Shown: positions 29,795 to 63,746 of the stretch, piece by piece | How positions within the stretch are numbered: the stretch's first letter is position 1 | How the letters are laid out: every line of letters begins with the position of its first letter | Assembly (NCBI GenBank): GCA_017516485.1 | Contig: JAFXCH010000063.1 | Span: 1-64,000, forward strand | Origin: Clostridia bacterium | Lineage (GTDB): Bacteria > Bacillota > Clostridia > Oscillospirales > Acutalibacteraceae | Direction: 5' to 3' | DNA length: 64,000 bases | Translations under genes and position numbers: made by a program | The notes under the pieces: model-generated | Database searches by the model: none | Seen by the model: the letters and a program-made list of their open reading frames with translations, nothing else | What the model was told of the DNA's origin: nothing

Positions 29795-30511
29795 TCAGCC
29801 TACAAGTGTTTTAAGGTAAGCGATACTGCGTTTTACGTCCTCAAGTCCGTTCGGTACAGGATCGTCATTTTCAACTACAAGCCACTCTATGCCTGCATCC
29901 TTTGCAGCCTTTACAATCTTTGCAACATCACAGTCGCCGTCGCCGAGTGAGAGAGGCTTACGATTGAGACCGTCCTTGACATGGAGAAGACAGATTCTGT
30001 CCTTATTCTCCATAATGAAGTTGTAGTTATCCACACCTGCACAGTGGCTCCAGTATGTATCAACCTCGAGGTATGTGTGCTCGGCAAAAATCTGCATACC
30101 GATCTTGCCGTTTTCAAGAGGAGTAAATTCTTCAGTGTGGTTGTGATAATATGTGGGAACACCGAGCTTTTCTGCACCGTAGGCAAGAGCTTTGGCGGCA
30201 TATTCACACTCCTCAACAGTATCATGTGCTGCACCGCCTACACCGCAGTTAAGGCAACCGAGAACCTTATTGAAGGCTGCTGTTTTTTCAATATTCTCGG
30301 GAAGGAAATCATCAATGCCGAGATGTGTACCGACGGGCACAAGACCAAGCTCATCGAGCTTTGTGCGGATAGTTGCGGCATCAACGCCGTGATAGCCCGC
30401 AAACTCAACACCGTCATAGCCCATAGCCTTGATTTCTTCAAGAGCCTTCATAAAATCGTCCGCACTGTTGATACAGTCACGTACGCTGTAAAGCTGAACT
30501 GCTATTTTCAT
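29795..30511 (-). CDS. Sugar phosphate isomerase/epimerase-like TIM-barrel protein
   Basis: Shorter member (238 residues) of the same superfamily. MKIAVQLYSVRDC opens the barrel. Putative metal ligands lie in HNHTEEF, EVDTYW, LHVKDG and VVENDD. It is the second gene of the operon, 19 bases after the dehydrogenase at 30531. Together with the longer barrel protein it fits a two-step conversion of an oxidised sugar. The substrate is not identifiable from sequence. Confidence 0.87.
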   Translation of the reverse strand: MKIAVQLYSVRDCINSADDFMKALEEIKAMGYDGVEFAGYHGVDAATIRTKLDELGLVPVGTHLGIDDFLPENIEKTAAFNKVLGCLNCGVGGAAHDTVEECEYAAKALAYGAEKLGVPTYYHNHTEEFTPLENGKIGMQIFAEHTYLEVDTYWSHCAGVDNYNFIMENKDRICLLHVKDGLNRKPLSLGDGDCDVAKIVKAAKDAGIEWLVVENDDPVPNGLEDVKRSIAYLKTLVG

Positions 30512-30530
30512 AATTTATATCTCCTTGTAA

Positions 30531-31631
30531 TCAGTCGTTATTGATATATACGGGTGCGCCTGTCTTTGCAGACTCGTATATAGCCTCAAGAATCTGAGTA
30601 ACTACAAGTGCCTGCTCCGGCTTTGTCTTAACCTCTGTATCATTGAGGATTGCATCGTACCACAGACGGCACTCAACATCCTTCGGGTCAGGATGACGGT
30701 CACCTTCATAGAATGCTACGCCGCCTGCATCAAAGCTGGGGGTTTCAATAACCTGTCTGCCGTACTTGACATAGTTGAACTGAAGGCTCTCGTCGGGACC
30801 GTTGAAATCAGCACCTGCCTTGTCACCGCAGAGCATACACACAGCCTCTCTCGGGTCAGCAACATTGAGTGCCCAAGCAGACTCAAGAGTAATCGTTGCA
30901 CCGTTCTCCATAACGATGAAACCGAATGCAGAATCTTCAACGGTAAACTTCTCAGGATCCCAATCGCCCCATGAGTTTGCAGCACGCTTCTGCTGACCGA
31001 GCTTCTTGAATGTAGTACCTACAACCATCTTGGGCTTATAGTTGTTCATCATATAAAGAGTAAGGTCGAGAGCATGTGTACCGATATCGATAAGCGGACC
31101 GCCGCCCTGCTCATACTCGTTAAGGAAAACACCCCATGTCGGGACAGCACGACGACGAAGTGCAATAGCCTTTGCGTAGTATATTTCGCCGAGATCGCCG
31201 TTGTCGCAAGCCTCTTTGAGGTAGATGGAATCGTCTCTCCAGCGCTGCTGGTAACCGATTGTGAGCTTCTTGCCTGTACGCTGTGCAGCTTCGAGCATAA
31301 GCTTTGCATCTGCATATGTTTTAGCCATAGGCTTCTCACACATAACGTGCTTGCCTGCCTCAAGAGAATCAACAGTAATAAAGCTGTGTGAACGGTTGGG
31401 TGTGCAGACATGGACTACATCGATACTCTCATCTTTGAGAAGCTCTTTATAATCCTCGTAAACCTTTGCACCCTCGATACCGTATTTTGCAGCTGCAGCC
31501 TCTGCCTTCTCGATAACGATATCGCAGAATGCAACCATTTCAGCTTCTTTGATTTTTGCAATAGACGGCATATGCTTGCCGTTGGCAATACCACCGCAAC
31601 CGATAATACCGACTCTGAGTTTTTTATCCAT
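30531..31631 (-). CDS. Gfo/Idh/MocA family dehydrogenase (first operon gene)
   Basis: First gene of the four-gene sugar operon, 366 residues. The Rossmann motif is VGIIGCGGIANGKHM, the family lysine is in CEKPMAK, and the catalytic Asp/His are in GGGPLIDIGTHALDLTLY. A putative substrate loop is rich in Arg and Trp (YQQRWRDDS). The family oxidises sugar C2/C3 hydroxyls, inositols or glycosides with bound or free NAD(P). The promoter at 31681-31708 drives the operon. Confidence 0.92.
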   Translation of the reverse strand: MDKKLRVGIIGCGGIANGKHMPSIAKIKEAEMVAFCDIVIEKAEAAAAKYGIEGAKVYEDYKELLKDESIDVVHVCTPNRSHSFITVDSLEAGKHVMCEKPMAKTYADAKLMLEAAQRTGKKLTIGYQQRWRDDSIYLKEACDNGDLGEIYYAKAIALRRRAVPTWGVFLNEYEQGGGPLIDIGTHALDLTLYMMNNYKPKMVVGTTFKKLGQQKRAANSWGDWDPEKFTVEDSAFGFIVMENGATITLESAWALNVADPREAVCMLCGDKAGADFNGPDESLQFNYVKYGRQVIETPSFDAGGVAFYEGDRHPDPKDVECRLWYDAILNDTEVKTKPEQALVVTQILEAIYESAKTGAPVYINND

Positions 31632-31680
31632 AATCTATTCCTTTCTGTCGCCGTAAAAGACGACAATAATCTACAACTTC

Positions 31681-31708
31681 ATTATATTAAACAGAATTTC
31701 AAAATCAA
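31681..31708 (-). promoter_or_regulatory. Promoter of the sugar operon
   Basis: On the minus strand TTGATT and TATAAT are separated by 16 bases, about 50 bases upstream of the first start codon. No operator repeat is obvious. Confidence 0.65.
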
Positions 31709-31774
31709 CACTTTTCTGTGTTTTTGGATGTAAAATATTATAATGTTTTATTGGTTATTTTAACAATAGGGATT

Positions 31775-32284
31775 TCATTTTTTCTTTCTGTCCAGACGAA
31801 TCATACCAACAACAATTGACGAAAGCACAAAAATCTCAGTCGCAATACCTGCAAATGAACGGGTAGGGATATTATAAATCAACCAACACGCAGAGGTCGG
31901 CATTGAAAATGCACGGTTGATTTTCGGCGAATCAATCCACAGCACAACTGACGATGCAACCATTGCAACAATCGGGAAAACGGAAAAGACATTATCCCAT
32001 GTCATAATACCGGAAACGGTAAAAATAATGCTGAATATCACCGGCCAGAGCTTGAAACCGGTGAATTTGTTTTTATCTCGGTTAGCATAAATCATCGAGC
32101 GGAAAGCACCTATAAGATTAGATACACAGCCCGTATAAGCGCCTATCAGAAAGAAGTGCAGCGTAAACAGCAGGCCCGACACCATCTGAAAAACAAGAAT
32201 ATTCTTGTGCGATTTTTGCTGGTACGAAAACACGATAATTGCCATTGCGACAAAGCCTACAATCTGGCCGATTATTTCTTTCAT
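31775..32284 (-). CDS. YgjV-family inner membrane protein
   Basis: 169-residue protein with about five or six hydrophobic helices. The N terminus GQIVGFVAMAIIVFSYQQKSHKNIL and the later SVFPIVAMVASSVVLW and ACWLIYNIPTRSFAGIATEI match the YgjV (Imp-YgjV) family. That family is widespread and of unknown function. It is monocistronic, in a gap between the sugar operon and the phosphoesterase. Confidence 0.75.
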   Translation of the reverse strand: MKEIIGQIVGFVAMAIIVFSYQQKSHKNILVFQMVSGLLFTLHFFLIGAYTGCVSNLIGAFRSMIYANRDKNKFTGFKLWPVIFSIIFTVSGIMTWDNVFSVFPIVAMVASSVVLWIDSPKINRAFSMPTSACWLIYNIPTRSFAGIATEIFVLSSIVVGMIRLDRKKK

Positions 32285-32416
32285 TTGTTATGCTCCGTTC
32301 AATATTTTTATATTAATTATAGAGCTTTTACAAATAAAAACAACGGGCAATTTGTTTGAAGTTGCGCTGTAATTTTATGAAAATTCAACAAAATTCTTAA
32401 GTCCTCATCAAACTGA

Positions 32417-32445
32417 TTGAAAAATGATTTTATGCGTGTTATACT
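32417..32445 (+). promoter_or_regulatory. Promoter of phosphoesterase gene
   Basis: TTGAAA (32417-32422) and TATACT (32440-32445), 17-base spacer. Confidence 0.7.
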
Positions 32446-32479
32446 CTGAGCAGTGATTTTTTCAGAAGGAGAATTAACT

Positions 32480-34102
32480 ATGGAAAGAACAAAACCTGTT
32501 AGAGGTTCAACTCCTCAACCCGACCATATAATGATAAGCATTTATGACGATGCAAAAACCACAATGGCTGTCACCTGGCGTACAAGCACAGACGTTACAA
32601 ACGGCTATGTACTTTACCGTGAAGACGGCACTGACACTGTTATGCGCACCGAAGCCGAAACAGAGGTTTTCGAGAGCGATATTGACATCAGCAATATGTT
32701 CTGGGGACACCTTGAGGGACTCAAGCCCGGAACAAAATACTACTACACCTGCGGTAACGACACAAACCGCAGTGAAGAGTACTTTTTTACAACTCAGCCT
32801 GAGGGTCTGACAAAGTTCAAATTCCTCTGCGTATCCGACCAGCAGAAGGGTGAGCCGTTTGATGAGCCCGATTACTCATACTTCAATTCACTTATCAAGC
32901 GTTATCTCAAGGAGCATCCCGACACTGCATTCATCCTCACTGCAGGCGACAACACCGACTGCGGTATGCACGAGCAGCAGTGGAACGGTGCATTCCTCGG
33001 CTGGGAAGGTATTGCAGAATATGTGCCTGTTATGTTCACCGAAGGTAACCACGACACACGAGGCTTCAAAGACTACAGAAACGGTATAGGCCGCTACTAT
33101 TCAGAACCTGCCGAGTTTTTCTGCAAGCAGCTCAAAGGCAGTTACCCCTACAACGGACCTGAAGGCTGGAAGACAGAAAACTACGCTTTTGACTACGGCA
33201 ACGTTCACTTTACGGTACTCGGCGTAAACGGACCCGAGGATGTAAACGAGTGGCTGAAGGCTGACCTTGAGAAGTGCACAGCCGACTGGAAAATCGGTAC
33301 ATACCACTTCCCCGTATGCTATACGGGCAGTGACTGTCAGAATTACGACTGCTACCCTGTTATGACAGAGAGTATGGAAATGCTCGACCTGCTCTTCTCG
33401 GGTCACGAGCACAGCTTCGGCAGAAGCTTCCCGAGAAAGAATGAAGAGCTGTTTGAGCAGCCCTCAAAGGGTATGATAAACTACGTGCTCGGCAATTCAA
33501 ATCAGAATCCGCCCGGCACACGCTCACTCAGTAAAGTATGGCACACTGCATTTTATCCGATGGAAGACAGAACCTCTATGATTGCAATAGCTGAGGTTGA
33601 CGGCAAGAAACTTACAATCACTGCTTCTCTTGAGGACGGCAGAATCGCAGACCGCTGTGTTATCGACAAAGAAAATGATATTATCGAGCCTCGTGCACTT
33701 GCTCCCTACTTCAACCGTACACGAATGATGTACAAGGGTGCTGACCTCGGTCTTTGCCAATATCAGACAACCTGCGAAAATATCGACGGCGTATGGTACG
33801 GCTGTCTGAGTGTACTTTTCTCATACTTCGGCGGTATGGTTAAGAAAACCGAAAATCAGGTGTATCTTGAGGGCTACGGTCACTGGGCAAAATTCACACA
33901 GGACAGTAAAACAGTTGAAACCGACCGCGGCACAATTGAGCTTGAGAATGCGGTTTACCGCAATGCAGACAAGAAAAATCAGCTCTACATACCAATGGAT
34001 GCAGTAAAGCTGTTTGATATGCGCTGGGCTTACGCAAAGCGTAACAACTTCATACTCGTCGAGCACGAGAGCGAAGACAAACCGATTACGGTACAGCCGT
34101 AA
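32480..34102 (+). CDS. Purple-acid-phosphatase-like metallophosphoesterase
   Basis: 540-residue protein from ATG 32480 behind AGAAGGAG. The N-terminal fibronectin-III-like domain (about 20-110, TTMAVTWRTSTDV and GLKPGTKYYYTCG) is the PAP N domain. The phosphoesterase domain follows: GDNTDCG, TEGNHDTRG, TYHFPVCY and FSGHEHSFGR. A C-terminal region (about 400-540, containing YGHWAKFTQDSK) resembles a copper-amine-oxidase-N-like or stalk domain. There is no clear signal peptide, unusual for the fold, so location is uncertain. Confidence 0.85.
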   Translation: MERTKPVRGSTPQPDHIMISIYDDAKTTMAVTWRTSTDVTNGYVLYREDGTDTVMRTEAETEVFESDIDISNMFWGHLEGLKPGTKYYYTCGNDTNRSEEYFFTTQPEGLTKFKFLCVSDQQKGEPFDEPDYSYFNSLIKRYLKEHPDTAFILTAGDNTDCGMHEQQWNGAFLGWEGIAEYVPVMFTEGNHDTRGFKDYRNGIGRYYSEPAEFFCKQLKGSYPYNGPEGWKTENYAFDYGNVHFTVLGVNGPEDVNEWLKADLEKCTADWKIGTYHFPVCYTGSDCQNYDCYPVMTESMEMLDLLFSGHEHSFGRSFPRKNEELFEQPSKGMINYVLGNSNQNPPGTRSLSKVWHTAFYPMEDRTSMIAIAEVDGKKLTITASLEDGRIADRCVIDKENDIIEPRALAPYFNRTRMMYKGADLGLCQYQTTCENIDGVWYGCLSVLFSYFGGMVKKTENQVYLEGYGHWAKFTQDSKTVETDRGTIELENAVYRNADKKNQLYIPMDAVKLFDMRWAYAKRNNFILVEHESEDKPITVQP

Positions 34103-34115
34103 TTAATTCAAAATT

Positions 34116-34185
34116 AATGTCATCCTGAGCGTTAGCGAAGGATCTCAAGCAACCTGAGATTCTTCACTTCGTTCAGAATGACATT
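34116..34185 (+). repeat. 70-bp palindromic repeat, copy 1
   Basis: Outer arms AATGTCATCCTGA and TCAGAATGACATT pair with one mismatch; the inner arms GAAGGATCTCA and TGAGATTCTTC also pair, so the whole unit folds on itself. A near-identical copy in the same orientation is at 34501-34570. An AAAAGGTG ribosome site follows four bases after this copy. This repeat type is common in bacterial genomes and often accompanies GIY-YIG genes. Confidence 0.85.
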
Positions 34186-34202
34186 TTTAAAAGGTGATAA
34201 AT

Positions 34203-34484
34203 TTGCAGTACTATGTTTATATGCTTACAAACTGTAATAACAAGGTTTTATACACCGGTGTAACTAATAATCTTGAACGTAGGGTATACGAACATAAAAA
34301 CGGTACGGTTGAAGGATTCACAAAAAGGTATAATGTACATAAACTTGTTTGGTTTGATTGTACGAGCGACATTTACTCTGCAATAGGAAAAGAAAAGCAA
34401 ATCAAAGGCTGGACTCGTGCTAAGAAAAACGCTCTTATCAAAGAAATGAATCCAACATGGCGCGATTTGTCTGATGATTGGTAA
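34203..34484 (+). CDS. GIY-YIG nuclease superfamily protein (URI/YhbQ type)
   Basis: Small single-domain nuclease-like protein, 93 residues from TTG 34203 (ribosome site AAAAGGTG, six bases upstream). The GIY-YIG elements appear as YYVYMLTN and LYTGVTNN, followed by NLERRVYEHKNG (conserved Arg and His). KLVWFDCTSDIYSAIGKEKQIKGW carries the Glu that binds metal. Such proteins are related to UvrC and homing-enzyme catalytic domains; the cellular role is unsettled. Two 70-bp hairpin repeats flank it tightly, which suggests that gene and repeats move or spread together. Confidence 0.87.
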   Translation: MQYYVYMLTNCNNKVLYTGVTNNLERRVYEHKNGTVEGFTKRYNVHKLVWFDCTSDIYSAIGKEKQIKGWTRAKKNALIKEMNPTWRDLSDDW

Positions 34485-34500
34485 TATACATATAAAACTA

Positions 34501-34570
34501 ATGTCATCCTGAGCGCCAGCGAAGGATCTCATGTAAGCTGAGATTCTTCACTTCGTTCAGAATGACATTT
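34501..34570 (+). repeat. 70-bp palindromic repeat, copy 2
   Basis: Same length, orientation and arms as copy 1. It differs mainly in the central loop and at two bases after GAGCG. It starts 16 bases past the GIY-YIG stop. Confidence 0.85.
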
Positions 34571-34594
34571 TACGTTTATATTATAATTACACCT

Positions 34595-34622
34595 TGACAA
34601 ACACTGTTAATGTATGATACTT
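34595..34622 (+). promoter_or_regulatory. Promoter of ABC exporter operon
   Basis: TTGACA (34595-34600) is consensus; GATACT (34617-34622) follows after 16 bases. It reads into the leader ORF. A small hairpin TTGCATT/AATGCAA (34629-34649) lies near the expected 5' end. Confidence 0.6.
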
Positions 34623-34679
34623 TAATTCTTGCATTCCGTGTAAATGCAAAGAATATTTCAAAGAAAGGAGACGGACATA

Positions 34680-34742
34680 ATGATGATGAACACTTTTTCA
34701 AACAATAATTTTCGGGTAATTGTGTCCGCTTCTGTCTGCTGA
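34680..34742 (+). CDS. Leader peptide of ABC exporter operon
   Basis: A 20-residue ORF (MMMNTFSNNNFRVIVSASVC) with a strong AAAGGAG eight bases before its ATG, followed 20 bases later by an intrinsic terminator, then the exporter genes. The layout is that of B. subtilis bmrB-bmrC-bmrD, where drug-slowed translation of a leader lets transcription pass a terminator. Bases TTTTCGGGT (34709-34717) inside the ORF copy the 3' arm of the terminator and could pair with its 5' arm. The peptide itself probably has no function. Confidence 0.7.
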   Translation: MMMNTFSNNNFRVIVSASVC

Positions 34743-34761
34743 GGCATTTTGCAATTTTGTC

Positions 34762-34797
34762 AACACCCGGAAAACACTGGTTTTTCGGGTGTTTTTT
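34762..34797 (+). terminator. Attenuator terminator between leader and ABC genes
   Basis: AACACCCG-GAAAAC (34762-34775) pairs with GTTTTT-CGGGTGTT (34780-34793), followed by TTTT. It stands before the exporter genes, so it must be bypassed for their expression from the leader promoter. Confidence 0.85.
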
Positions 34798-34854
34798 ATT
34801 GCCACGGTTTGACGGTAAGCATACACAATCGCCCTCACAATCAGGAGGTTGAAA

Positions 34855-36684
34855 TTGAAAACAAAAAAAACAACAAAAGAGCGTAATGAGCGTTTTGTAA
34901 ACCTCAAGAACACTTTTTACGCTATCAAGACAATTCACAGGTGTGCACCGTTACTGCTCACCTCCTTTATCCTCACACAGACCGCATTCTGGTTTTTCAC
35001 AGGCTTTATTCAGGAGATACTGTTTCTCAAACTCCTTTTATCGCTTATTGAAAGCGGCGGCAGCTACAAAGAGTATGTGTTACTCGTACTTATGTTTGCT
35101 GCTTCGGGTCTGCTTGCAAAAGCAACAGACTGTTTCACGGATTACCTTGTATGCACGAGGATGAAACATTTTTACAAGAATCTCAACGACCGCATTTTTA
35201 AAAAGGCGGTCAGCGTTGATATGGCTTGTTTTGAAAACCCCGAGTTTTATGACAAGTACAAGCGCGCAACGGAAATCATCACAAACGACCATTCGAGCGA
35301 ATTTGCCTACCACCTTGCAAGCGTTTTTGCAGGCGGTCTCACGGGCATATTTCTCGTTATCTATGTAGTATCTATCGACCCTAAGATACTGCTGATAATG
35401 CTCATTGTGCTTGCAGTTGTAATTGCAGAAACGGTAAAAGGCAAGCTTGAAGTAAAAAAAGACCAAGAAATGACCACACACAAGCGCTCAAAGGAATATG
35501 TCAAACGCACTGTTTTCCTCAAGGATTTTGCAAAGGATATCAGGACCTCGGGCATATTCGGCGTAATGTACAACCGATTTGAAACTGCTGTTGAGAATAA
35601 CCGCGAAATAATCAGAAAATACGGCGTAAAGCTGGCTGCACTCGAGCTTATCGCAGGTCTTTTCGGCAAAGCGTTACCCGTAGCGGTTACATACACCTAT
35701 GCCACCTACCGCTTTGTTGTAAAAAAGAATCTTGCTGTTTCGGATTTCTCCGTTATTATGACAGCGATGAGCAACCTTAAGGATGTACTCAACGACCTCG
35801 GTCGTGCCGTTTCTTTCATCCGCAAAGAGGCAGCCTACTTCGGCAACCTCAAGGAATTTTTCGAGTACGAATCAAAAGTTACGGGCGGCGACATAATTGC
35901 CGACGAATTTGAAAGTCTCGAATTCCAAGATGTGCATTTCACCTACCCCGGTGCAAAAAAGCCCTCCCTCAACGGAATTAATCTTAAAATAAACAAGGGC
36001 GAAACTATAGCAGTGGTAGGCCACAACGGTGCAGGCAAGACCACATTTGTAAAGCTGTTATTAAGATTTTACGACCCTGACAGCGGTACAATTTTATACA
36101 ACGGTACAGATATAAGAGAATACAACATTGACTCTATTCGTGAAAGGCTTGCAACCGTATTTCAGGACTATAAGGTTTTTGCCCTCACAGTCAGCGAAAA
36201 CGTGATTTGCCGTGAAGAGAACAGCGAAAAAGACAACGCACTTGTAACCGATTCGCTCAAAGCGGCAGGCATATACGAGCGTGTTATGGTTATGCCCGAA
36301 AAAGAGCAGACCGTTTTCACGCGTGAGTTTGACGATAAAGGCATCGGCCTTTCTGGCGGCGAGCAGCAAAAGCTGTGTGCGGCAAGAATGTTCGCAAGGC
36401 AGTTTGATATGGCATTGCTCGATGAGCCTTCATCCGCGCTCGACCCTATAGCAGAATACAAGATGTATGAAAGCCTTATTGATGCAACAAAGGATAAGAC
36501 GGTCATTTACATATCCCACAGACTTTCAAGTGCCGTGCTTTCCGACAGAATATATGTATTTGAAGGCGGCAGTGTTATCGAAAGCGGCACTCACGAGGAG
36601 CTGATGTCGGCAGGCGGCAGCTACTTTGAAATGTTCACGCTCCAGGCATCAAGCTATAAGGATGAGGAAAGGAGCGTGAGCTGA
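34855..36684 (+). CDS. ABC exporter half-transporter, subunit A
   Basis: Fused membrane/ATPase half-transporter (609 residues from TTG 34855, seven bases after AGGAGG). About six helices lie in residues 20-320. The ATPase has Walker A VVGHNGAGKTT, a Q-loop in VFQDYK, signature LSGGEQQK, Walker B MALLDEPSSALD with the catalytic Glu, and H-loop ISHRLSS. It pairs with the next gene as a heterodimeric multidrug/peptide exporter. Stop and next start are two bases apart. The closest relative in the window is the gene at 61923. The leader/terminator upstream suggests induction by translation stress. Confidence 0.93.
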   Translation: MKTKKTTKERNERFVNLKNTFYAIKTIHRCAPLLLTSFILTQTAFWFFTGFIQEILFLKLLLSLIESGGSYKEYVLLVLMFAASGLLAKATDCFTDYLVCTRMKHFYKNLNDRIFKKAVSVDMACFENPEFYDKYKRATEIITNDHSSEFAYHLASVFAGGLTGIFLVIYVVSIDPKILLIMLIVLAVVIAETVKGKLEVKKDQEMTTHKRSKEYVKRTVFLKDFAKDIRTSGIFGVMYNRFETAVENNREIIRKYGVKLAALELIAGLFGKALPVAVTYTYATYRFVVKKNLAVSDFSVIMTAMSNLKDVLNDLGRAVSFIRKEAAYFGNLKEFFEYESKVTGGDIIADEFESLEFQDVHFTYPGAKKPSLNGINLKINKGETIAVVGHNGAGKTTFVKLLLRFYDPDSGTILYNGTDIREYNIDSIRERLATVFQDYKVFALTVSENVICREENSEKDNALVTDSLKAAGIYERVMVMPEKEQTVFTREFDDKGIGLSGGEQQKLCAARMFARQFDMALLDEPSSALDPIAEYKMYESLIDATKDKTVIYISHRLSSAVLSDRIYVFEGGSVIESGTHEELMSAGGSYFEMFTLQASSYKDEERSVS

Positions 36685-36686
36685 AG

Positions 36687-38483
36687 ATGAAGAAAAAAGC
36701 CAAAACCAAGCACAGCACGGTTTCAAACGTACTGTATATGCTTCGGCTGATGTTCAAGGTCTCACCCGGTCTTGTAATAGGTGAAATCGCTGAGGAGATA
36801 ACCTCCGCACTGCCGGGCAAGCTCATATCCGTTATAGGACTGAAATTTGTCATTGACGAAGTGCAAAAAGGCTCAGACCCTAAGAAAATAATTCTTGCAA
36901 TTGTTCTGATGCTCGGCATAATCATAGCCTGCGAGGCTTTTGCCAATATTTTCTATGAGCTGTATGTATACAGAGAGCGTGAGAAGCTTGACCTCGGCGT
37001 ACAGTCGATATTTTACAAAAAAGCTGCCGAGCTTGACCTTGCGAGATACGATGACCCCGGATATTACAGCGATTTTATTCTTTCAATCGAAAACACCTCG
37101 GACAATATCCGCTCAATTCTCAGCCTTGTACGCGGCTATATCGAGCAGGTTATATCGTTCATTACTATTGCGGCAATTATGCTGACGATCGACCCGATAT
37201 GCCTTGTAATAGTACTTTTATCCGTAGTGCTGTTTATACCTTTAGGCAGGTACACAGGCAGCCTGCAGACCAAAAGACGTGAGGCCATAACCGAAAAGCA
37301 CCGCAGAGGCGACTACTTTGCAAGGCTGTTTTATCTGCCCGACTACGCAGGCGAGATACGCACGAGCGGCGTTTATCCCCTGCTTCGTAAAAGATTCAAC
37401 GAAAGTGCCGATGACGTTGTACGCACACAGAGCAGATTTGTCAAAAAGCTTGACTGGCTGTTTTTTGCACAGGAGTTTACTATTCAGGTTGTTGGCTTTA
37501 TGCTCATACTCAGCCTTTATATCGGCTACCAGACAATAGTTACGGGCAATATGTCGGCAGGTGATTTTGTTGCAACCTTCAACGGCTCGGTACAAATAGG
37601 CAGCAGCATACTTTTCCTCACGGTTTACAGCCTTCGTAACTTCACCGAAAGGTCGAAGATGATTGAGAAATGCCGCGAATTTCTCGGCGAAACCTCAAAA
37701 ATTAAAGACGGAAAACACGTCGCTGAATGCGGCAAACCTGAAAAGATATCAGTCAAGAATGTCACCTTCGCATACGAAGGTAGTGAGGGCGACTGCATAA
37801 ACAATGTTTCGTTCGAAATTATGCCGGGTGAAAAGATTGCGCTTGTCGGCTACAACGGTGCAGGCAAGACTACACTTACAAATCTGCTGCTTCGTCTTTA
37901 CGATATAAAAAACGGCTCAATAGAAATAGGCGGCAGAGATATACGTGAAGAAACCGTTGATTCGCACCGTGCACGCTTTGCCGCAGTGTTTCAGGATTTC
38001 TGCATTTTCGGTGCAACAGTCGGTGAAAATGTAGCACTCGAAAAAGACTATGACTCCGAGCGTGTGCTTGAAGCGCTTAAACTTGCAGGCTTTACAAAGC
38101 CTCTTCCGAACGGTCCTGATACCGTACTTCTGCGCGAGTTTGACGATGAAGGCATGATGCTCTCCGGCGGTGAGCAACAGAAGCTCGCTATCGCACGTGT
38201 ATTCTACAAGCAGTGCCCGTACATCATACTCGACGAGCCTTCGGCAAATCTCGACCCCGTATCCGAGTACGAGCTAAATCAGGCAATCAGCCGCAACTGT
38301 GAAAACAGAACGGTAATTTTCATTTCTCACCGTCTCTCAACCACTCGCCACGCGGACAGAATACTGATGCTCGAAAACGGTAGGATAATCGAAAGCGGCT
38401 CACACGATGAGCTTATGGCACTCAACGGCAAGTATGCTTATATGTTCAAACTTCAGGCAGAAAAATACAACGACCAGCAATAA
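36687..38483 (+). CDS. ABC exporter half-transporter, subunit B
   Basis: 598-residue partner of the gene upstream. The membrane domain runs to about residue 330. The ATPase shows LVGYNGAGKTTLTNLL, VFQDFC, LSGGEQQKLAIARVF, YIILDEPSANLD and ISHRLSTT. Both subunits keep the catalytic Glu, so neither site is obviously degenerate, unlike many heterodimeric exporters. It resembles the gene at 60131 and keeps the same A-then-B order. It is followed after 15 bases by a secreted protein gene in the same operon. Confidence 0.93.
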   Translation: MKKKAKTKHSTVSNVLYMLRLMFKVSPGLVIGEIAEEITSALPGKLISVIGLKFVIDEVQKGSDPKKIILAIVLMLGIIIACEAFANIFYELYVYREREKLDLGVQSIFYKKAAELDLARYDDPGYYSDFILSIENTSDNIRSILSLVRGYIEQVISFITIAAIMLTIDPICLVIVLLSVVLFIPLGRYTGSLQTKRREAITEKHRRGDYFARLFYLPDYAGEIRTSGVYPLLRKRFNESADDVVRTQSRFVKKLDWLFFAQEFTIQVVGFMLILSLYIGYQTIVTGNMSAGDFVATFNGSVQIGSSILFLTVYSLRNFTERSKMIEKCREFLGETSKIKDGKHVAECGKPEKISVKNVTFAYEGSEGDCINNVSFEIMPGEKIALVGYNGAGKTTLTNLLLRLYDIKNGSIEIGGRDIREETVDSHRARFAAVFQDFCIFGATVGENVALEKDYDSERVLEALKLAGFTKPLPNGPDTVLLREFDDEGMMLSGGEQQKLAIARVFYKQCPYIILDEPSANLDPVSEYELNQAISRNCENRTVIFISHRLSTTRHADRILMLENGRIIESGSHDELMALNGKYAYMFKLQAEKYNDQQ

Positions 38484-38498
38484 AGGAGTTAGAAGAAA

Positions 38499-39560
38499 AT
38501 GAAGAAACTCATCAAAGCAGTTATCTGCATTGCTCTTGCACTGTCGCTTACCTTCAGCGCTTCTGCGGCAGGTCCGCAGGGAATCGGTGACACTTTCACA
38601 TCAGTTTTTGACAGTATCGTACGCTTTTTCTCAATACTTTTCGGCGATATATCCGACTTATTTGAGGGCGGATACACAAGGGTTGATATTGACGATTACT
38701 CTCAATTCACATTTGATATACCGGGACTCGACAGCGGCTTTGTACCGCAGGGTCTTTGCTACAGTGATGAGCTTGAAATGTTCCTTATAAGCGGTTACAC
38801 TGATGACAGCAACTCAAGGATTTATGCAGTCGATGCTAAAACAAATACTGCAAAAGAAATAATACTCAAGGATTTCACCGCTCACGCAGGCGGAATTTCA
38901 GCAAACGGCAAGCACATCTGGGTAGCTTCGGGCGGAAACGCAGAAAAAGGCGGCTATCTCTATCACCTTTCAACCGATGATATCATCAAGGCAGAAAGCG
39001 GTGACGAGCTTGCTTATGACAGCAAAACTCAGGCACCCGTCAAAGGCTCATTCCTCGGTTGCTCCGATAATATGATATGGGTTGGCGAATTTTACACAAA
39101 GAGCGGCGGTTACGAGGTCAATCCCGCCCACGCTTACGGTAAGAATCACTCATGGGCTTGCGGTTACAGCACTGACAATGACGGTAAGCTGAAGCTCGAA
39201 GCTGTGATTTCAGTACCCGATGAGGTACAAGGAATGACCGTACTTTCCGACAATACAGTTATTTTCAGTACGTCATACGGCAGATACAATGACTCCAAGT
39301 TACAGATTTATACACCCTACACCGAATGGGACAAGGGCACAGTAAGTATTGACGGTGAGGAAATCCCCTTCTACGGCTGTGACAAGAGTGACCGTACGGC
39401 AAAAATTGAAATGCCGACACTTATGCAGGGTATAGAAATGGTAAACGGAAAACTCTGCGTTATATACGAATCGGGTGCAGAAAAATACTCCAACGCAAAA
39501 GAAGTTATCCCGTATGCTCAGTTAATAGATATTGATTCTGTACTGAATCAAGTCAGATAA
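38499..39560 (+). CDS. Secreted beta-propeller-like protein of unknown function
   Basis: 353 residues with a classical signal peptide (about 1-24, basic start, hydrophobic core, ending ASAAG). The mature part repeats strands such as PQGLCYSDELEMFLISGY, AHAGGISANGKHIWVASGG and VQGMTVLSDNTVIFSTSYG, which suggests a propeller fold like SMP-30 or PQQ-type proteins. I cannot assign a family with certainty. It is third gene of the ABC exporter operon, so it may act outside the cell with the exported compound. Confidence 0.65.
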   Translation: MKKLIKAVICIALALSLTFSASAAGPQGIGDTFTSVFDSIVRFFSILFGDISDLFEGGYTRVDIDDYSQFTFDIPGLDSGFVPQGLCYSDELEMFLISGYTDDSNSRIYAVDAKTNTAKEIILKDFTAHAGGISANGKHIWVASGGNAEKGGYLYHLSTDDIIKAESGDELAYDSKTQAPVKGSFLGCSDNMIWVGEFYTKSGGYEVNPAHAYGKNHSWACGYSTDNDGKLKLEAVISVPDEVQGMTVLSDNTVIFSTSYGRYNDSKLQIYTPYTEWDKGTVSIDGEEIPFYGCDKSDRTAKIEMPTLMQGIEMVNGKLCVIYESGAEKYSNAKEVIPYAQLIDIDSVLNQVR

Positions 39561-39563
39561 AAA

Positions 39564-39608
39564 AACGGCAGAGGCTTGCACAACGCAAACCTCTGCTGTT
39601 TTTCTTTT
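39564..39608. terminator. Bidirectional terminator
   Basis: AACGGCAGAGGCTTGC (39564-39579) pairs with GCAAACCTCTGCTGTT (39585-39600) with two non-Watson-Crick positions. A T-run follows on plus and an A-run precedes. It ends the ABC operon and the convergent phosphoesterase. Confidence 0.85.
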
Positions 39609-39610
39609 AA

Positions 39611-40600
39611 TTATTTAATGTCGATTTTGTACTCATAAGCTGTGTACCAAACATTACTTGAGTAACTGCGGCCACGGACAAGCACATAGTCATCATAAAC
39701 CTCGAAAACAAAGCCTGTACCGCTCATAATCTGACCCATGGGGTTAAAGTACATATAGCAAGGCAGGTTTACTGATGTAATGTTGCCGTAGGTTTCGACG
39801 CTTCTGTAATTCCAGAGCTTCGGTGTAATCTTGTCGCCCATACCAAGGTGAAGGTGACCGCTGATATAGATTACATTTTCGTACTTCTGCAGTACAGCCT
39901 CAACCTTTTCGGACTGCTCACCGATACCGCCGTCCATCGGCTCGGGCTCATCGTCACCCCAGGTAACGGGCAGGCCGTGGCTATTATTTATAGGCTGGTG
40001 GAATACTACAAATATCGGCAAGTTGTCTTTAGAAGCCTCTGCCATTGTTGCATCGAGCCATGCAATCTGCTCATCACTGACGTAGGCATCCGTACCGTCA
40101 TCCTCACTGCTCATTACAACGAAAGTATAGCCGTTGACCTTTGTTGAGTAATATGTCTTTTCAAGTTCAAGACCCATTATCTGACCGGCATACTTCATAA
40201 AACGCTCCTGCGATTCGGGGAAACGGTCATCCTCATCACTGCCCCACGTATCGTGGTTACCTACAGAAAGAATGATATTGTCCGCAGGGTCATATTTCGA
40301 GAAAACATCAACGGTTTTCTGCCACTGTTCTTCGTATGCGTGGTCGGTGATATCACCTGCGTGAACAAGTGCATCAAGTCTGTAATCAGAGTTTTCCATA
40401 TCAGCAAGACCTAACTCAAGCATAAAGGAACGTGTTGCCGAATCCTTCATATGAGTATCGGATATAGTCGCAAAGGTAAGTTTTACGTTTTCTTCGTCCT
40501 TGGGAGCAAAGTCAGCAGAAATATTACCTGCAACAGGGTAAGAAATAAGGGTCGTTATCGCCATAAAAAAGGCAGATATTATTCTGAAAAAAGTTACCAT
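39611..40600 (-). CDS. Exported metallophosphoesterase
   Basis: 329-residue calcineurin-like phosphoesterase with an N-terminal hydrophobic segment (about 4-26) acting as signal peptide or anchor. Metal-site motifs: TISDTHMKD, VHAGDITDHA, SVGNHDTWG, VVFHQPINNSHG and ISGHLHLGMG, all intact. The start has GAGGTGAG upstream and follows the GH4 stop by 15 bases, so it is second in a two-gene operon after the glycosidase. It may release phosphate from extracellular phospho-sugars; that is inference. Confidence 0.87.
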   Translation of the reverse strand: MVTFFRIISAFFMAITTLISYPVAGNISADFAPKDEENVKLTFATISDTHMKDSATRSFMLELGLADMENSDYRLDALVHAGDITDHAYEEQWQKTVDVFSKYDPADNIILSVGNHDTWGSDEDDRFPESQERFMKYAGQIMGLELEKTYYSTKVNGYTFVVMSSEDDGTDAYVSDEQIAWLDATMAEASKDNLPIFVVFHQPINNSHGLPVTWGDDEPEPMDGGIGEQSEKVEAVLQKYENVIYISGHLHLGMGDKITPKLWNYRSVETYGNITSVNLPCYMYFNPMGQIMSGTGFVFEVYDDYVLVRGRSYSSNVWYTAYEYKIDIK

Positions 40601-60130: not shown

Positions 60131-61933
60131 TCAATTTGTACCTTCTTTATACTTTTCAGCCTGCAGGTTGAACATATAGGCATACTTGCCGTTCATAGCC
60201 ATAAGCTCTTCATGTGAACCGCTTTCGACAATCTCACCGTTTTCGAGCATATAAATAATATCTGCCATAACGGTTGTAGAAAGGCGGTGAGATATAAATA
60301 TAACTGTCTTATCCTGTGCCGCACGTGACATAGCTTCATTGAGTGAATATTCTGAAACAGGGTCAAGATTTGCACTCGGCTCGTCAAGAATTGCGAAAGG
60401 ACAGTCTTTATAAAAAGCACGTGCAACGGCAATCTTCTGTGCTTCACCGCCTGAGAGTGACAGACCTTCATCGTCAAACTCACGAAGCAGAATTGAATCC
60501 GTACCGTTAGGCAGTTTCTTTTCAAAGCTGCTCTCTCTGAGTGCGGTTTTTACTTTATCTTTATCGGGATTCTCCTCCATACCTACATTTTCGGCAAGGG
60601 TTGCACCAAAGAGAGAGAAATCCTGGAATACAGCCGCATAGTTTTCGTGATATGACTTAATTTTCCAGTCCTTGACATTGATGCCGTCAACGGTTATTTC
60701 GCCGCTTGTAACATCGTAAAGGCGTAACAGAAGATTAGTAAGAGTCGTCTTACCCGCACCGTTATAACCTACGAGAGCAATTTTCTGATAGGGCTTTATT
60801 TCAAGGCTGATATTCTTGAGCGTCGGTTTATCGTTTCCGGGATAGGTAAACGAAACGTTATCGAGCTTAATTGTAACGGGCTTATCAAACTTTTTCACAA
60901 GTGAGCCGTCTTTTATTTTTTCTTCGGTGCTCATAAACTTCTTGAATTTTTCAACATAGAGTCCGTTTTCGCGGAATGTAACGGCAAACCAAGTTGTAAG
61001 AGCAAAAATACTGCTGCTTACATTTGCCACGCCGTTGAATGTAGCAGCAAAATCGCCCATGGATATTTCTTTGAGCACTATGGCCTTGTAGCCCATATAA
61101 AGCGTTACGCCGAAGCTGATAAGAATTGTCAGCGGCAGACTGTCTTGTGAGAAATAAAGCATACACTGCTTATAAAGAAAAGGCGAAATTGTCTTTAAGC
61201 GGTCAAATATATTGGCAATATATCTTCGCTCTATCATTTCGCCTGCAGGGTTAAGTCTAAGCTCCTTGGCATAATCTTGCAGATAAAACACACGCGAAAA
61301 ATACATATTCTTGCGGTCAAGCGGAGTCATCGCCTGCTTTTTTGCAACGTTGACCTTTGCAATCATTCTGCCTATCGGCACCATAATGCCTACACAAGCA
61401 AGCACAAACAAAAGGCTTATCGGGTCAATACTGACAATAATCGCAGTAATGGTGAAAATTGAAAAAAGATTACTTAAAATATGACGTGCACAGCTCATAA
61501 CACTTTCTGTTCTGTCGCTCATCGAGTTCATTGCAAGAACGAAATCGTTATAAAACTCGGGGTCATCATAAGATTCAAAATCCATTTTTGCAGCTTTTTC
61601 ATAAATAGCCGTATACAGCTTATAATAAAGCTTTTCTTTTTGCTTCGGTACGTAAATCTCATAGACAATTGTATTGTATAGGTTGCCGAAAACAATAAAA
61701 AATGCAAATATTGCAAAAGCTATTATTATACGGTAATAAGCTGTACCCTCATTCACAACATCAATAATATATTTGAGGAGTACAACGTTAGACAGCATCC
61801 ATGGCAGATTGGTAAGAATATCGGCAAGAATATAATGAAAAATCAGGAAGGGAGAATGCTTGGTTATAAAGCGAAGCATAAAGAAGAAATTTTTTATGCT
61901 GTGTGCTTTTTCGGTCTGCTTCTTATTCTTCAT
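60131..61933 (-). CDS. ABC exporter half-transporter, subunit B (second system)
   Basis: 600-residue membrane/ATPase half-transporter. Membrane helices lie in residues 15-330. ATPase motifs: LVGYNGAGKTTLTNLL, VFQDFS, LSGGEAQKIAVARAF, FAILDEPSANLD and ISHRLSTT. It resembles the gene at 36687 in sequence and order. Its start overlaps the end of subunit A by 11 bases, so the pair is tightly coupled. Exported substrate unknown; multidrug or peptide export is likely. Confidence 0.92.
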   Translation of the reverse strand: MKNKKQTEKAHSIKNFFFMLRFITKHSPFLIFHYILADILTNLPWMLSNVVLLKYIIDVVNEGTAYYRIIIAFAIFAFFIVFGNLYNTIVYEIYVPKQKEKLYYKLYTAIYEKAAKMDFESYDDPEFYNDFVLAMNSMSDRTESVMSCARHILSNLFSIFTITAIIVSIDPISLLFVLACVGIMVPIGRMIAKVNVAKKQAMTPLDRKNMYFSRVFYLQDYAKELRLNPAGEMIERRYIANIFDRLKTISPFLYKQCMLYFSQDSLPLTILISFGVTLYMGYKAIVLKEISMGDFAATFNGVANVSSSIFALTTWFAVTFRENGLYVEKFKKFMSTEEKIKDGSLVKKFDKPVTIKLDNVSFTYPGNDKPTLKNISLEIKPYQKIALVGYNGAGKTTLTNLLLRLYDVTSGEITVDGINVKDWKIKSYHENYAAVFQDFSLFGATLAENVGMEENPDKDKVKTALRESSFEKKLPNGTDSILLREFDDEGLSLSGGEAQKIAVARAFYKDCPFAILDEPSANLDPVSEYSLNEAMSRAAQDKTVIFISHRLSTTVMADIIYMLENGEIVESGSHEELMAMNGKYAYMFNLQAEKYKEGTN

Positions 61934-63746
61934 CGCCGTCGTCCTCCTCTCTGTAGCCTGAAGCCTGGAGCGTAAACATTTCGCAGTATGCTCCGCCCGA
62001 AGCCATAAGAGACTCGTGCGTGCCCTGCTCTATAAGCTCGCCGTCCGCAAAGACAAGTATATTGTCACTGTGAGTTGCACTTGAAAGGCGATGAGAAATA
62101 TAGATTACGGTCTTATCTTTTGTTCCCTCCATAAGGTTATCGTACATTGCAGACTCTGCAACAGGGTCAAGTGCAGACGAAGGCTCGTCAAGAATCGCAA
62201 TATCAAACTTACCTGCAAACATACGGGCAATAGTAATCTTCTGGCTTTCACCGCCCGAAAGAAGTGCCCCCTCTTCATCAAATTCTCTGGTAAGCAGAGT
62301 ATTTATACCCTCGGGCAGAGTTTCAATTTTGCCGTAAACACCGCTTTGTCTGAGTGCTTTTTCGGCAAGCGGAAGATTTGTTTCGTTTGTTTCCTGCACA
62401 AGAACATTCTCTGCAACGGTCATTGCAAAAATCATATAATCCTGAAATACGCTTGCAAAGCGCTCGCGGTATTTAATAAGATCGTATTCTTTGATATTCA
62501 CGCCGTTATAAAGAATTTCGCCCTCGTTTACATCATAAAGGCGCATCATAAGTTTAGAAAGAGTTGTTTTGCCTGCTCCATTGTGACCGACAACCGCTAT
62601 GCTCTCACCCTTATTGATTCTGAACGAAACATTCTTCAGAGTATAATCCTTATTTTCACCGTAGCGGAATGATACATTTTTAAACTCAAGGCTTTCAAAT
62701 TCATCGGGTATAAGGTCGCCACTTTTGATTTTAGGCTCATAGGCAAGAAACTCTCGCAGATTCTGCACCCAGAGACAGTGCTTCTGCTGCATTGTAAAGT
62801 AATGTGCAAGCTGATTGAGTTTATTACGGCAGTTTGTTATTGCGGAAACAAGCACCGAAAAATCGGATATGCCTATATCGCCTACCGCTATAAGGCGGTA
62901 ACAACCGTAACCGAAACCGCCTGCAACAGGTATGACTTCACCGAAGAAGTCACTCAATGACTCCAACACGGCAACACGCCAACCGTATTTTTTTATAACA
63001 GCTATATTGTTGTCTATCGCTTCGGCAAAACGGCGTTTTACAACGTCAAAAATATTTGTAGTTTTTATTTCTTTGGCAAAGTCTTTGAGCAGAACCGTTC
63101 TTTTGGTGTAATCTTTCTGACGCTCAAACGGAGTCATTTCCTTTTCACGGGCAAACTCAACCTGATTACGCTTGACTCTGAAAACCATAACAATAAGCGG
63201 ACAAAGAATGAACACAAGCAAAAACGGGTCAAGACTATAGAGATAAACCGCAAGGAAGATAATACTGAAAACCGAGCCGAGAGTCCAACCGGTACCCTCA
63301 ATAATGCGTTTGAAGCCACCTTTTTCTACAACCCAGGTAGCACGGTTATAGTTATCGAAAAACTCAGGGTCTTCATAACAGCCAAGCTCGACCTGCTGAG
63401 CTTTTTTAAATATCATTGCGTTCAGATAACTCTCACACTTGATTTCAAACTTTTCACGCACGGGATGAAAAGCATAATAAGAAAACAGGTCAATTACGAT
63501 TTTACCGAATATGATAAGGCCTATCTTTATCGCAAACTCACGGAATGTACCGTTGCCCTCAATAATTGAGAGTGCAGTCTGCAGAAACATAACATTAAAA
63601 ACAACGGCATAATATACATTTTCAGCTATATATGCAAGGTAGATTATAAGCACGGAAAGCGGTGCGCACTTAAAACCGCACTTCATCATAAACCACGTAT
63701 TGCGGAATACGTGCGCCTTGGCTTTGAAATCAACAACCTGTCTCAT
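61923..63746 (-). CDS. ABC exporter half-transporter, subunit A (second system)
   Basis: 607-residue partner, first in the operon. ATPase motifs: VVGHNGAGKTTLSKLM, VFQDYM, LSGGESQKITIARMF, IAILDEPSSALD and ISHRLSSA, complete. The intracellular loop CYEDPEFFDNYNRATW parallels CFENPEFYDKYKRATE in the gene at 34855, marking the two as paralogs. Unlike that system, no leader ORF or attenuator precedes it; the promoter is at 63781-63809. GAAAGGAG precedes the ATG. Confidence 0.92.
   Translation of the reverse strand: MRQVVDFKAKAHVFRNTWFMMKCGFKCAPLSVLIIYLAYIAENVYYAVVFNVMFLQTALSIIEGNGTFREFAIKIGLIIFGKIVIDLFSYYAFHPVREKFEIKCESYLNAMIFKKAQQVELGCYEDPEFFDNYNRATWVVEKGGFKRIIEGTGWTLGSVFSIIFLAVYLYSLDPFLLVFILCPLIVMVFRVKRNQVEFAREKEMTPFERQKDYTKRTVLLKDFAKEIKTTNIFDVVKRRFAEAIDNNIAVIKKYGWRVAVLESLSDFFGEVIPVAGGFGYGCYRLIAVGDIGISDFSVLVSAITNCRNKLNQLAHYFTMQQKHCLWVQNLREFLAYEPKIKSGDLIPDEFESLEFKNVSFRYGENKDYTLKNVSFRINKGESIAVVGHNGAGKTTLSKLMMRLYDVNEGEILYNGVNIKEYDLIKYRERFASVFQDYMIFAMTVAENVLVQETNETNLPLAEKALRQSGVYGKIETLPEGINTLLTREFDEEGALLSGGESQKITIARMFAGKFDIAILDEPSSALDPVAESAMYDNLMEGTKDKTVIYISHRLSSATHSDNILVFADGELIEQGTHESLMASGGAYCEMFTLQASGYREEDDGDEE

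Follow-up and report, generated by a model that had tools for sequence, protein, structure and literature searches.

The window, the whole 64,000-nt stretch of Clostridia DNA analysed here, carries on its plus strand two genes of ABC half-exporters preceded by a short leader. The first half-exporter (34849..36684) has 611 amino acids as called; by reading, its likely true start is the TTG at 34855, which stands six bases past AGGAGG. The second (36687..38483) has 598 amino acids. Both genes had been named in an earlier first-pass annotation of this DNA and were confirmed. Compared with solved structures, the first half is closest in sequence to ABCB-type exporters and MsbA, and neither half matched a listed NCBIfam model at its curated cut-off. 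In BmrCD-like exporters with one degenerate ATP site, one half is devoid of the catalytic glutamate or of the LSGGE signature. Here, in contrast, LDEP and LSGGE are present in both halves (translations, by eye), and a degenerate half was not found. A second pair of ABC half-exporters lies at 60140-63707 on the minus strand, with one half 44% identical to the first half-exporter; by reading, no leader stands before this paralogous pair. Directly upstream of the leader, on the same strand, lies a small gene with a GIY-YIG endonuclease domain (34194-34484), flanked by two copies of a palindromic repeat (34134-34168 and 34518-34552; AGCGAAGGATCTCA ... TGAGATTCTTCACT). The gene between the repeats is possibly part of a mobile unit, and a similar palindromic repeat was seen ahead of the same leader in another genome (G003).

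The leader region starts with a promoter-like sigma-70 site, TTGACA-16-GATACT, at 34594..34621 (plus strand), one base off from the position first assigned to it (34595-34622). The TTGACA box is similarly placed in the four orthologous loci of the same genus, and TTGACA or TTGACT occurs in several further relatives. Close to where the transcript should begin, the leader fold contains a hairpin, P0 (34629..34649; TTGCATT...AATGCAA with a CCGTGTA loop), and P0-like stems with a CCGTGT-like loop were recognized by eye in part of the orthologues. The leader open reading frame that had been proposed was confirmed: it spans 34680..34742, comprises 20 codons, encodes the peptide MMMNTFSNNNFRVIVSASVC and is preceded by a ribosome site, GGAG, at 34667-34670; an in-frame leader, with a ribosome site before it, is found in 24 other loci and in one contig-edge copy. 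The intrinsic terminator (34762..34800), likewise confirmed, consists of a stem of 14 pairs (34762-34793) followed by a T tract, and the stem begins 19 nt 3′ of the leader stop codon. Of the terminator-like sites in 30000-40000 it has the most pairs; there are 12 of these, close to the number expected by chance (10.4 in shuffles).

Folding of the leader (34628-34800, 173 nt) gave z = -4.24 against shuffles. The fold contains a helix that the first-pass annotation does not list, named P1, whose 5′ arm, segment 1 (34666..34681), consists of the ribosome site AGGAG plus CGGACAUAAU and pairs with AUUGUGUCCGCUUCU at 34719-34733. The latter stretch, segment 2 (ATTGTGTCCGCTTCT), is formed by the last codons of the ORF, so that the leader ribosome site pairs with the end of its own reading frame. 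In the window alone, P1 was matched by 9/5000 shuffles, and its energy, -20.5 kcal/mol, can be compared with a mean of -7.8 and a lowest value of -17.1 for 27 window ORFs of at least 200 aa with a ribosome site. The pairing on which the first-pass annotation was built is also present: the strand TTTTCGGGT inside the ORF (34709..34717), which copies part of the terminator 3′ arm, pairs with ACCCGGAAAA (ACCCG-G-AAAA) in the terminator 5′ arm at 34765-34774, with one bulged G. However, this antiterminator was described incompletely, since inner helices are nested in it within 34718..34756 (34718-34724 with 34750-34756, and 34728-34732 with 34741-34745, in the fold of the antiterminator region), and in the window alone the pairing is borderline, with 241/5000 shuffles doing as well. 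P1 is thus the stronger of the two in the window, and conservation decides on their reality. A further pairing, P3, joins the end of the ORF (34724-34747) to segment 5 (34799..34825), just past the terminator; it is imperfect in the window and long in several relatives.

The leader is retained in relatives of the window. In four of ten other genomes of the genus, the first ABC half is 74-91% identical and has promoter, leader and terminator in front, and in a fifth the leader and terminator lie near a contig edge. From 135 relatives, a scan of named bacterial genomes retained 79 loci; 75 of them were scored after leaving out the partial matches L075, L077, L093 and L110. In the upstream sequence inspected (a maximum of 700 nt, and under 400 nt for L044, L066, L084, L091 and L092), 24/75 scored loci, the four of the same genus included, carry the leader before the related ABC gene. 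These are 24 of the 29 loci with a best-segment identity of at least 55% and none of the 46 below it; the five genes above this threshold with no leader are L040, L048, L053, L056 and L062. An ORF and a terminator also lie upstream of one gene below the threshold (L078), by reading not of this plan. All 24 leader-bearing loci are metagenome-assembled, and 18 of them come from ruminant gut or rectum samples. After L061, a near copy of L060, was dropped, sets of 25 leaders were used for permutation and folding; L121 belongs to these sets and is absent from the 24-row alignments. A terminator is present in all 25 ABC-type leaders, as the upstream listing required.

The conservation of the pairings was analysed by co-variation and by swapping partners between leaders, with statistics that ignore the relatedness of the sequences. 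In the alignment of 24 leaders (the window and 23 others), 93.2% of the P1 cells are paired and 6/14 pairs have changed on both sides; the co-variation score is 0.264 against 0.199 when shuffled, with 0/500 reaching it, and pairing falls to 39-53% when the partner is slid along. Partner-swapping in 25 leaders gave cognate energies of -19.1 vs -16.7 kcal/mol for P1 (0/5000 permutations), -9.1 vs -8.2 kcal/mol for the antiterminator (15/5000; weak in L059 and L063) and -19.9 vs -14.7 kcal/mol for P3 (0/5000; weak in L045, L063 and L068). The compensated changes can be followed by reading. In P1, CGGACA/TGTCCG is replaced by CAGACA/TGTCTG, and by CGAACA/TGTTCG in L068, where the peptide changes from S to F; in L052 and L055 GTG has become ATG (V to M), turning a U-G into a U-A pair; and in L041 the antiterminator strand has changed from TCGGG to TCCGG (R to P) opposite CCGGA. 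Because these compensated changes alter the peptide, the pairing of the leader RNA seems to be kept more than the peptide, which points to selection acting on RNA. The 3′ arm of P1 also keeps one frame in 23/25 ABC-type leaders and in 38/41 leaders of the wider class described below, as judged by an automatic frame test; the reading frame itself is taken from the leader peptides. By reading, the two ABC-type exceptions, the window and L038, arose because the search expression caught a second TGTCT, and L138 of the wider class is a real one. In predicted folds of the window and most other loci, segment 2 is also used, in varying forms, by the inner helices nested in the antiterminator; therefore, the same segment serves both P1 and the antiterminator.

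P3 is found in most ABC-type loci, where the end of the ORF pairs with sequence just past the terminator and compensated changes occur; in L049, at least 11 perfect pairs can be read. Its far arm is present only after read-through, and the helix encloses the terminator. P1 and P3 partly share a segment, and the idea that P3 frees the leader ribosome site in the read-through RNA was considered and rejected, because P3 prevailed over P1 in only 2/25 folds extended to 60 nt past the terminator. As a guess, P3 might act in the processing or stability of the read-through message.

Leaders of the same plan were also found that stand mostly before other genes. A covariance model, R1, was built from the ribosome site to the stop codon with P1 as its sole structure. 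In the window’s own genome, the window is its sole strong match, with three more at E 0.05-0.41, and 40/398 genomes of the family contain matches. Among its matches were 19 loci (L136-L154, about 30-51 bits), 17 of which were judged to share the plan while differing in sequence and, mostly, in the gene that follows; L149 was left out as it looks coding, and L152 was set aside. From these 17 loci, the window not included, a second model, R2, was made, which is not independent of R1 because its seeds were found with R1. R2 finds the window at E 1.5e-5 as the sole match in that genome. It matches 36/398 genomes of the family, 16/394 of the order (13 of these outside the window’s genus, in seven other families), 5/391 of the class, the window’s own included, and in the phylum sample only the window’s own out of 279. 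Both models hold the antiterminator strand of the ORF as unpaired sequence, and the terminator with its antiterminator arm lies outside both. The loci analysed are those returned by the searches, a part of all R1 and R2 match rows. The parse of the wider class left out 10 duplicates and L192, for which no terminator was found. The start motif stayed unparsed in L152, L179, L185, L193 and L194, and all of these except L179 look by eye like members; L197-L200 were observed and stand outside the counts.

A terminator was found in 41/42 parsed non-duplicate leaders of the wider class, where none was required. Co-variation of the antiterminator is strong in these 41 leaders (-16.6 vs -11.3 kcal/mol, 0/5000, z -9.9; by partner permutations that again ignore relatedness), and nested inner helices of varying form are present; P1 gave 0/5000 partner permutations, and P3 was not found (4742/5000). 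The antiterminator pairing first noticed in the window therefore co-varies in both sets, at 15/5000 and 0/5000. The usual C-termini of the wider-class peptides are (A/S)(V/I)LSVCD and close variants, ILSAD and VLSAV. The first-pass annotation had proposed that relatives be compared for the ORF and the antiterminator; the ORF, the terminator and the co-varying antiterminator proved to be conserved, and the interpretation as an attenuator is supported at the level of sequence comparison. The same data bear on a simpler explanation, in which the ORF is there by chance and the terminator merely marks the end of a transcript that is abortive or comes from upstream. The GIY-YIG gene that ends at 34484 on the same strand would fit such a role. 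However, a promoter-like site lies in between, and co-variation of both P1 and the antiterminator extends over 25 ABC-type leaders and 41 others, so this explanation is extremely improbable.

Downstream ORFs were found for 37/42 wider-class leaders, and 30 of them were scanned for protein families. Twenty encode GNAT-type acetyltransferases, two histidine phosphatases and two ABC exporter halves; the others comprise one GrpB, one AP_endonuc_2, one P-loop ABC_ATPase and three with no family. Gene assignment is weak for L136, L161, L169, L170 and L175, because no ORF with a ribosome site is reached before 200-390 nt downstream. ABC exporter genes were also noted behind the wider-class leaders L138, L153, L136 and L137 (the last two by reading only), and L137 apparently lies on the same contig as L067. 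At gathering score, neither the window nor any of 20 other tested loci matches a family of Rfam 15. At E up to 1, nothing convincing was found for 34590-34870, the best match being sau-63 with 22.6 vs 100 bits. The class appears undescribed in the open literature searched, PMC11109978 and PMC8632094 included. These comparisons suggest that the window leader is one member of a wider co-varying RNA family absent from Rfam. The existence of a conserved RNA structure, P1, and of P0, which looks conserved in part of the loci, might also be expected of a metabolite-binding riboswitch that happens to hold an ORF. With no Rfam riboswitch match, no conserved ligand-type core seen outside the ORF and the pairing arms, and downstream genes that are mainly exporters and acetyltransferases, a riboswitch is very unlikely.

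The possible role of a ribosome on the leader was modelled by folding the leaders as far as the terminator loop, either naked or with a ribosome footprint imposed. In naked ABC-type RNA, P1 forms with a mean probability of 0.91, and the antiterminator exceeds 0.5 in 0/25 leaders. With a ribosome at the start codon, P1 is gone and the antiterminator exceeds 0.5 in 16/25; in the other nine it does not rise above this value, with only 0.12 in L059. In the wider class, 15/41 naked RNAs favour the antiterminator at equilibrium, and 36/41 do so with a start-codon ribosome. When the P-site codon is moved from 1 to 5, the mean antiterminator probability of the ABC type is 0.53, 0.53, 0.56, 0.51 and 0.31. 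It is near zero from about codon 7 to the fourth-last codon, with a similar picture in the wider class, and on the last codon it reaches a mean of 0.43, exceeding 0.5 in 10/25 ABC-type leaders. In the model, the antiterminator can thus form while a ribosome sits at codons 1-5 and is shut out by one between about codon 7 and the fourth-last, which is most simply read as the logic of the Bacillus subtilis vmlR leader. A completed terminator is nevertheless favoured at equilibrium even with a start-codon ribosome (mean 0.87 in the ABC type and 0.71 in the wider class), and in the ABC type this is so in all ribosome states. Because of this the switch must be kinetic; such kinetic control, and an OFF state under free translation, are inferred.

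The codons at which an arrested ribosome would switch the RNA in this model coincide with unusual amino acids. Met occurs in codons 2-4 of 45/66 leaders vs 10/224 ordinary ORFs, and codon 2 is Thr or Met in 57/66 leaders vs 15/224 ordinary ORFs, where Lys is commonest. The 224 ORFs, of at least 150 aa and with ribosome sites, were taken from the window and L038-L116, ABC genes included; the contrast is no formal test, because both sets hold related sequences. Such an enrichment could also be read as the mark of an amino-acid attenuator of the trp or his type, responding to a shortage of charged tRNA. Met stands where a stall would give the ON state, and low formyl-Met or Met-tRNA could be sensed. 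However, Met in codons 2-4 is the only marked enrichment seen, and it is absent from 21/66 leaders; none of the 30 scanned downstream proteins belongs to an amino-acid biosynthesis family (three matched nothing); and the Rfam His_leader model gives 18.3 bits vs a threshold of 49. We regard this explanation as quite unlikely.

At the other end of the ORF, a [VILMF]S pair lies within the last nine residues of 64/66 leader peptides, and conservation of the peptide is highest over its C-terminal codons. This would suit an arrest-peptide attenuator, in which the nascent peptide (C-terminal VxVSxSxC) together with a drug or metabolite stalls the ribosome late, as in ermC-type leaders. The conservation can be explained otherwise: the peptide changes along with the arm while pairing stays (S to F in L068, V to M in L052 and L055, R to P in L041), and these codons therefore look conserved for pairing. 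In the folding model, moreover, a ribosome between codon 7 and the fourth-last codon shuts the antiterminator, which stays partly open only with a ribosome on about the last two codons. An arrest peptide is accordingly considered unlikely.

Ribosome-mediated transcription attenuation is a known kind of control, and vmlR, bmrB, cplR and toiL are relatives of the present leader in function. In the vmlR leader of B. subtilis, arrest at initiation, caused among others by lincomycin and retapamulin, blocks an anti-antiterminator, so that the antiterminator forms and the terminator is passed (Takada et al. 2022, PMC9226507). Similarly, the vmlR upstream ORF lies within the anti-antiterminator, and P1 here overlaps both the ORF and the antiterminator. 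According to the same source, however, the vmlR ORF encodes a tripeptide (MIN), its ribosome site is single-stranded before SL-1, an SL-4 hairpin may add translational control, and the gene encodes an ABCF ATPase. The present ORF has 20 codons, the last of which supply the 3′ arm of P1, its ribosome site is paired within that helix, and it precedes ABC exporters in the window and chiefly GNATs in the wider class. The first-pass annotation compared the locus with bmrB-bmrC-bmrD of B. subtilis, which is induced by ribosome-targeting drugs (Reilman et al. 2014, PMC4191407). The likeness holds in that a leader ORF precedes a two-gene ABC exporter and that a terminator, an antiterminator and an anti-antiterminator were predicted, the role of the last being left open there (PMC4191407). 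Nevertheless, the bmrB structures, terminator included, lie inside the coding region, as described there, unlike the terminator here, which begins past the stop codon. Among the systems compared, vmlR rather than bmrB is judged to be the nearest mechanistic precedent.

The cplR leader of Clostridioides difficile resembles the present one in being clostridial, in having a 5′ hairpin that sequesters the upstream ORF and in its intrinsic terminator, and it is induced by drug-stalled ribosomes (PMC10201436). It differs in its three-codon ORF (MRI), its ABCF gene and a terminator hairpin that also hides the ribosome site of the gene. The toiL ORF of E. coli topAI senses start-codon arrest, by tetracycline and, by the authors’ reasoning, by retapamulin, and this single ORF answers several drug classes; control is translational and involves Rho, the genes belong to a toxin-antitoxin system, and no intrinsic terminator switch is described (PMC12121999). 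Since the features compared (ORF length, the placing of the ribosome site in P1, the terminator outside the ORF and the genes) set them apart from these families, the present leaders are regarded as a new co-varying family.

It is proposed that 34594-34854 is a ribosome-mediated transcription attenuator with three competing RNA structures, which would work by vmlR-like start-codon arrest and represent a new family; we consider this reading probable. With no ribosome on the leader, P1 would pair the ribosome site and start (segment 1) with the last codons (segment 2), segment 2 would be tied up and the terminator would form, giving the OFF state. A freely translating ribosome would sweep the ORF clear, after which P1 or the terminator would form, again OFF. 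A drug that traps the ribosome at the start codon or within the first four or so codons would keep segment 1 occupied and prevent P1. The antiterminator, made by TTTTCGGGT with the terminator 5′ arm and by the inner helices that also use segment 2, could then form before the terminator 3′ arm is made, and polymerase would enter the ABC genes (ON). P1 is the anti-antiterminator that was missing from the alternative-fold scheme first proposed, the attenuator part of which is supported; and although the direction of switching had been held to be beyond what the sequence could settle, the pairing of the ribosome site with the last codons suggests one.

The signal would be an inhibitor of initiation or early elongation, such as a pleuromutilin, a lincosamide, a streptogramin A or tetracycline, and the ABC pair would export such a drug. 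The start codon of E. coli toiL is where tetracycline arrests ribosomes, and retapamulin acts as an inducer via toiL (PMC12121999); with the vmlR arrest by lincomycin and retapamulin in mind, these three drugs are, by analogy, the first candidate signals. Where codon 2 is Thr, phenicols and oxazolidinones are possible signals as well. Thr in the penultimate position is reported as a weak context for chloramphenicol and linezolid (PMC8987054), and hence Thr2 could add sensitivity to these drugs with codon 3 in the P site.

If both groups of leaders are taken together, they may represent one new, modular family of attenuators, worked by start-codon arrest and shared by these Clostridia and related bacteria, a joint reading to which we give roughly even chances. 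In such a family, the ORF would hide its ribosome site with its own last codons, the first four codons (Met-Thr/Met-Met) would serve as a drug-reading window, the switch would have been fitted to unrelated genes (ABC exporters, GNATs, histidine phosphatases, GrpB), and the ABC branch would have added P3. If true, the downstream genes would be candidate defences against translation inhibitors, a hitherto unrecognised set marked by the switch, and an RNA signature recognisable by computer would mark genes turned on by ribosomes jammed at initiation. It would also offer an expression signal for poorly characterised GNATs and exporters, with the translation inhibitors to which they respond directly testable, and the vmlR logic, seen in three-codon upstream ORFs before ABCF genes, would be extended to a co-varying family in which the leader conceals its own ribosome site and which is present in several bacterial families.

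Searches of plasmids, phages and viral contigs gave no further copies: no viral contig contained an ABC alignment or the leader pattern, the window leader was not found in plasmids and phages, and one wider-class leader was not found in plasmids. Among the relatives, L045, L050, L051, L052, L054 and L055 have about 130-300 nt extra between the terminator and the start of the ABC match, with shared-looking pieces (CCTCTCA..., GTCGTTAAC and CGGAGG), and a second regulatory element is possible there. Before an ABC gene with 44% identity (L027), reading revealed a leader ORF of another kind, about 40 codons long (MTILAYDAKAVQT...) and with a terminator-like hairpin behind it, which may represent another type of attenuator.
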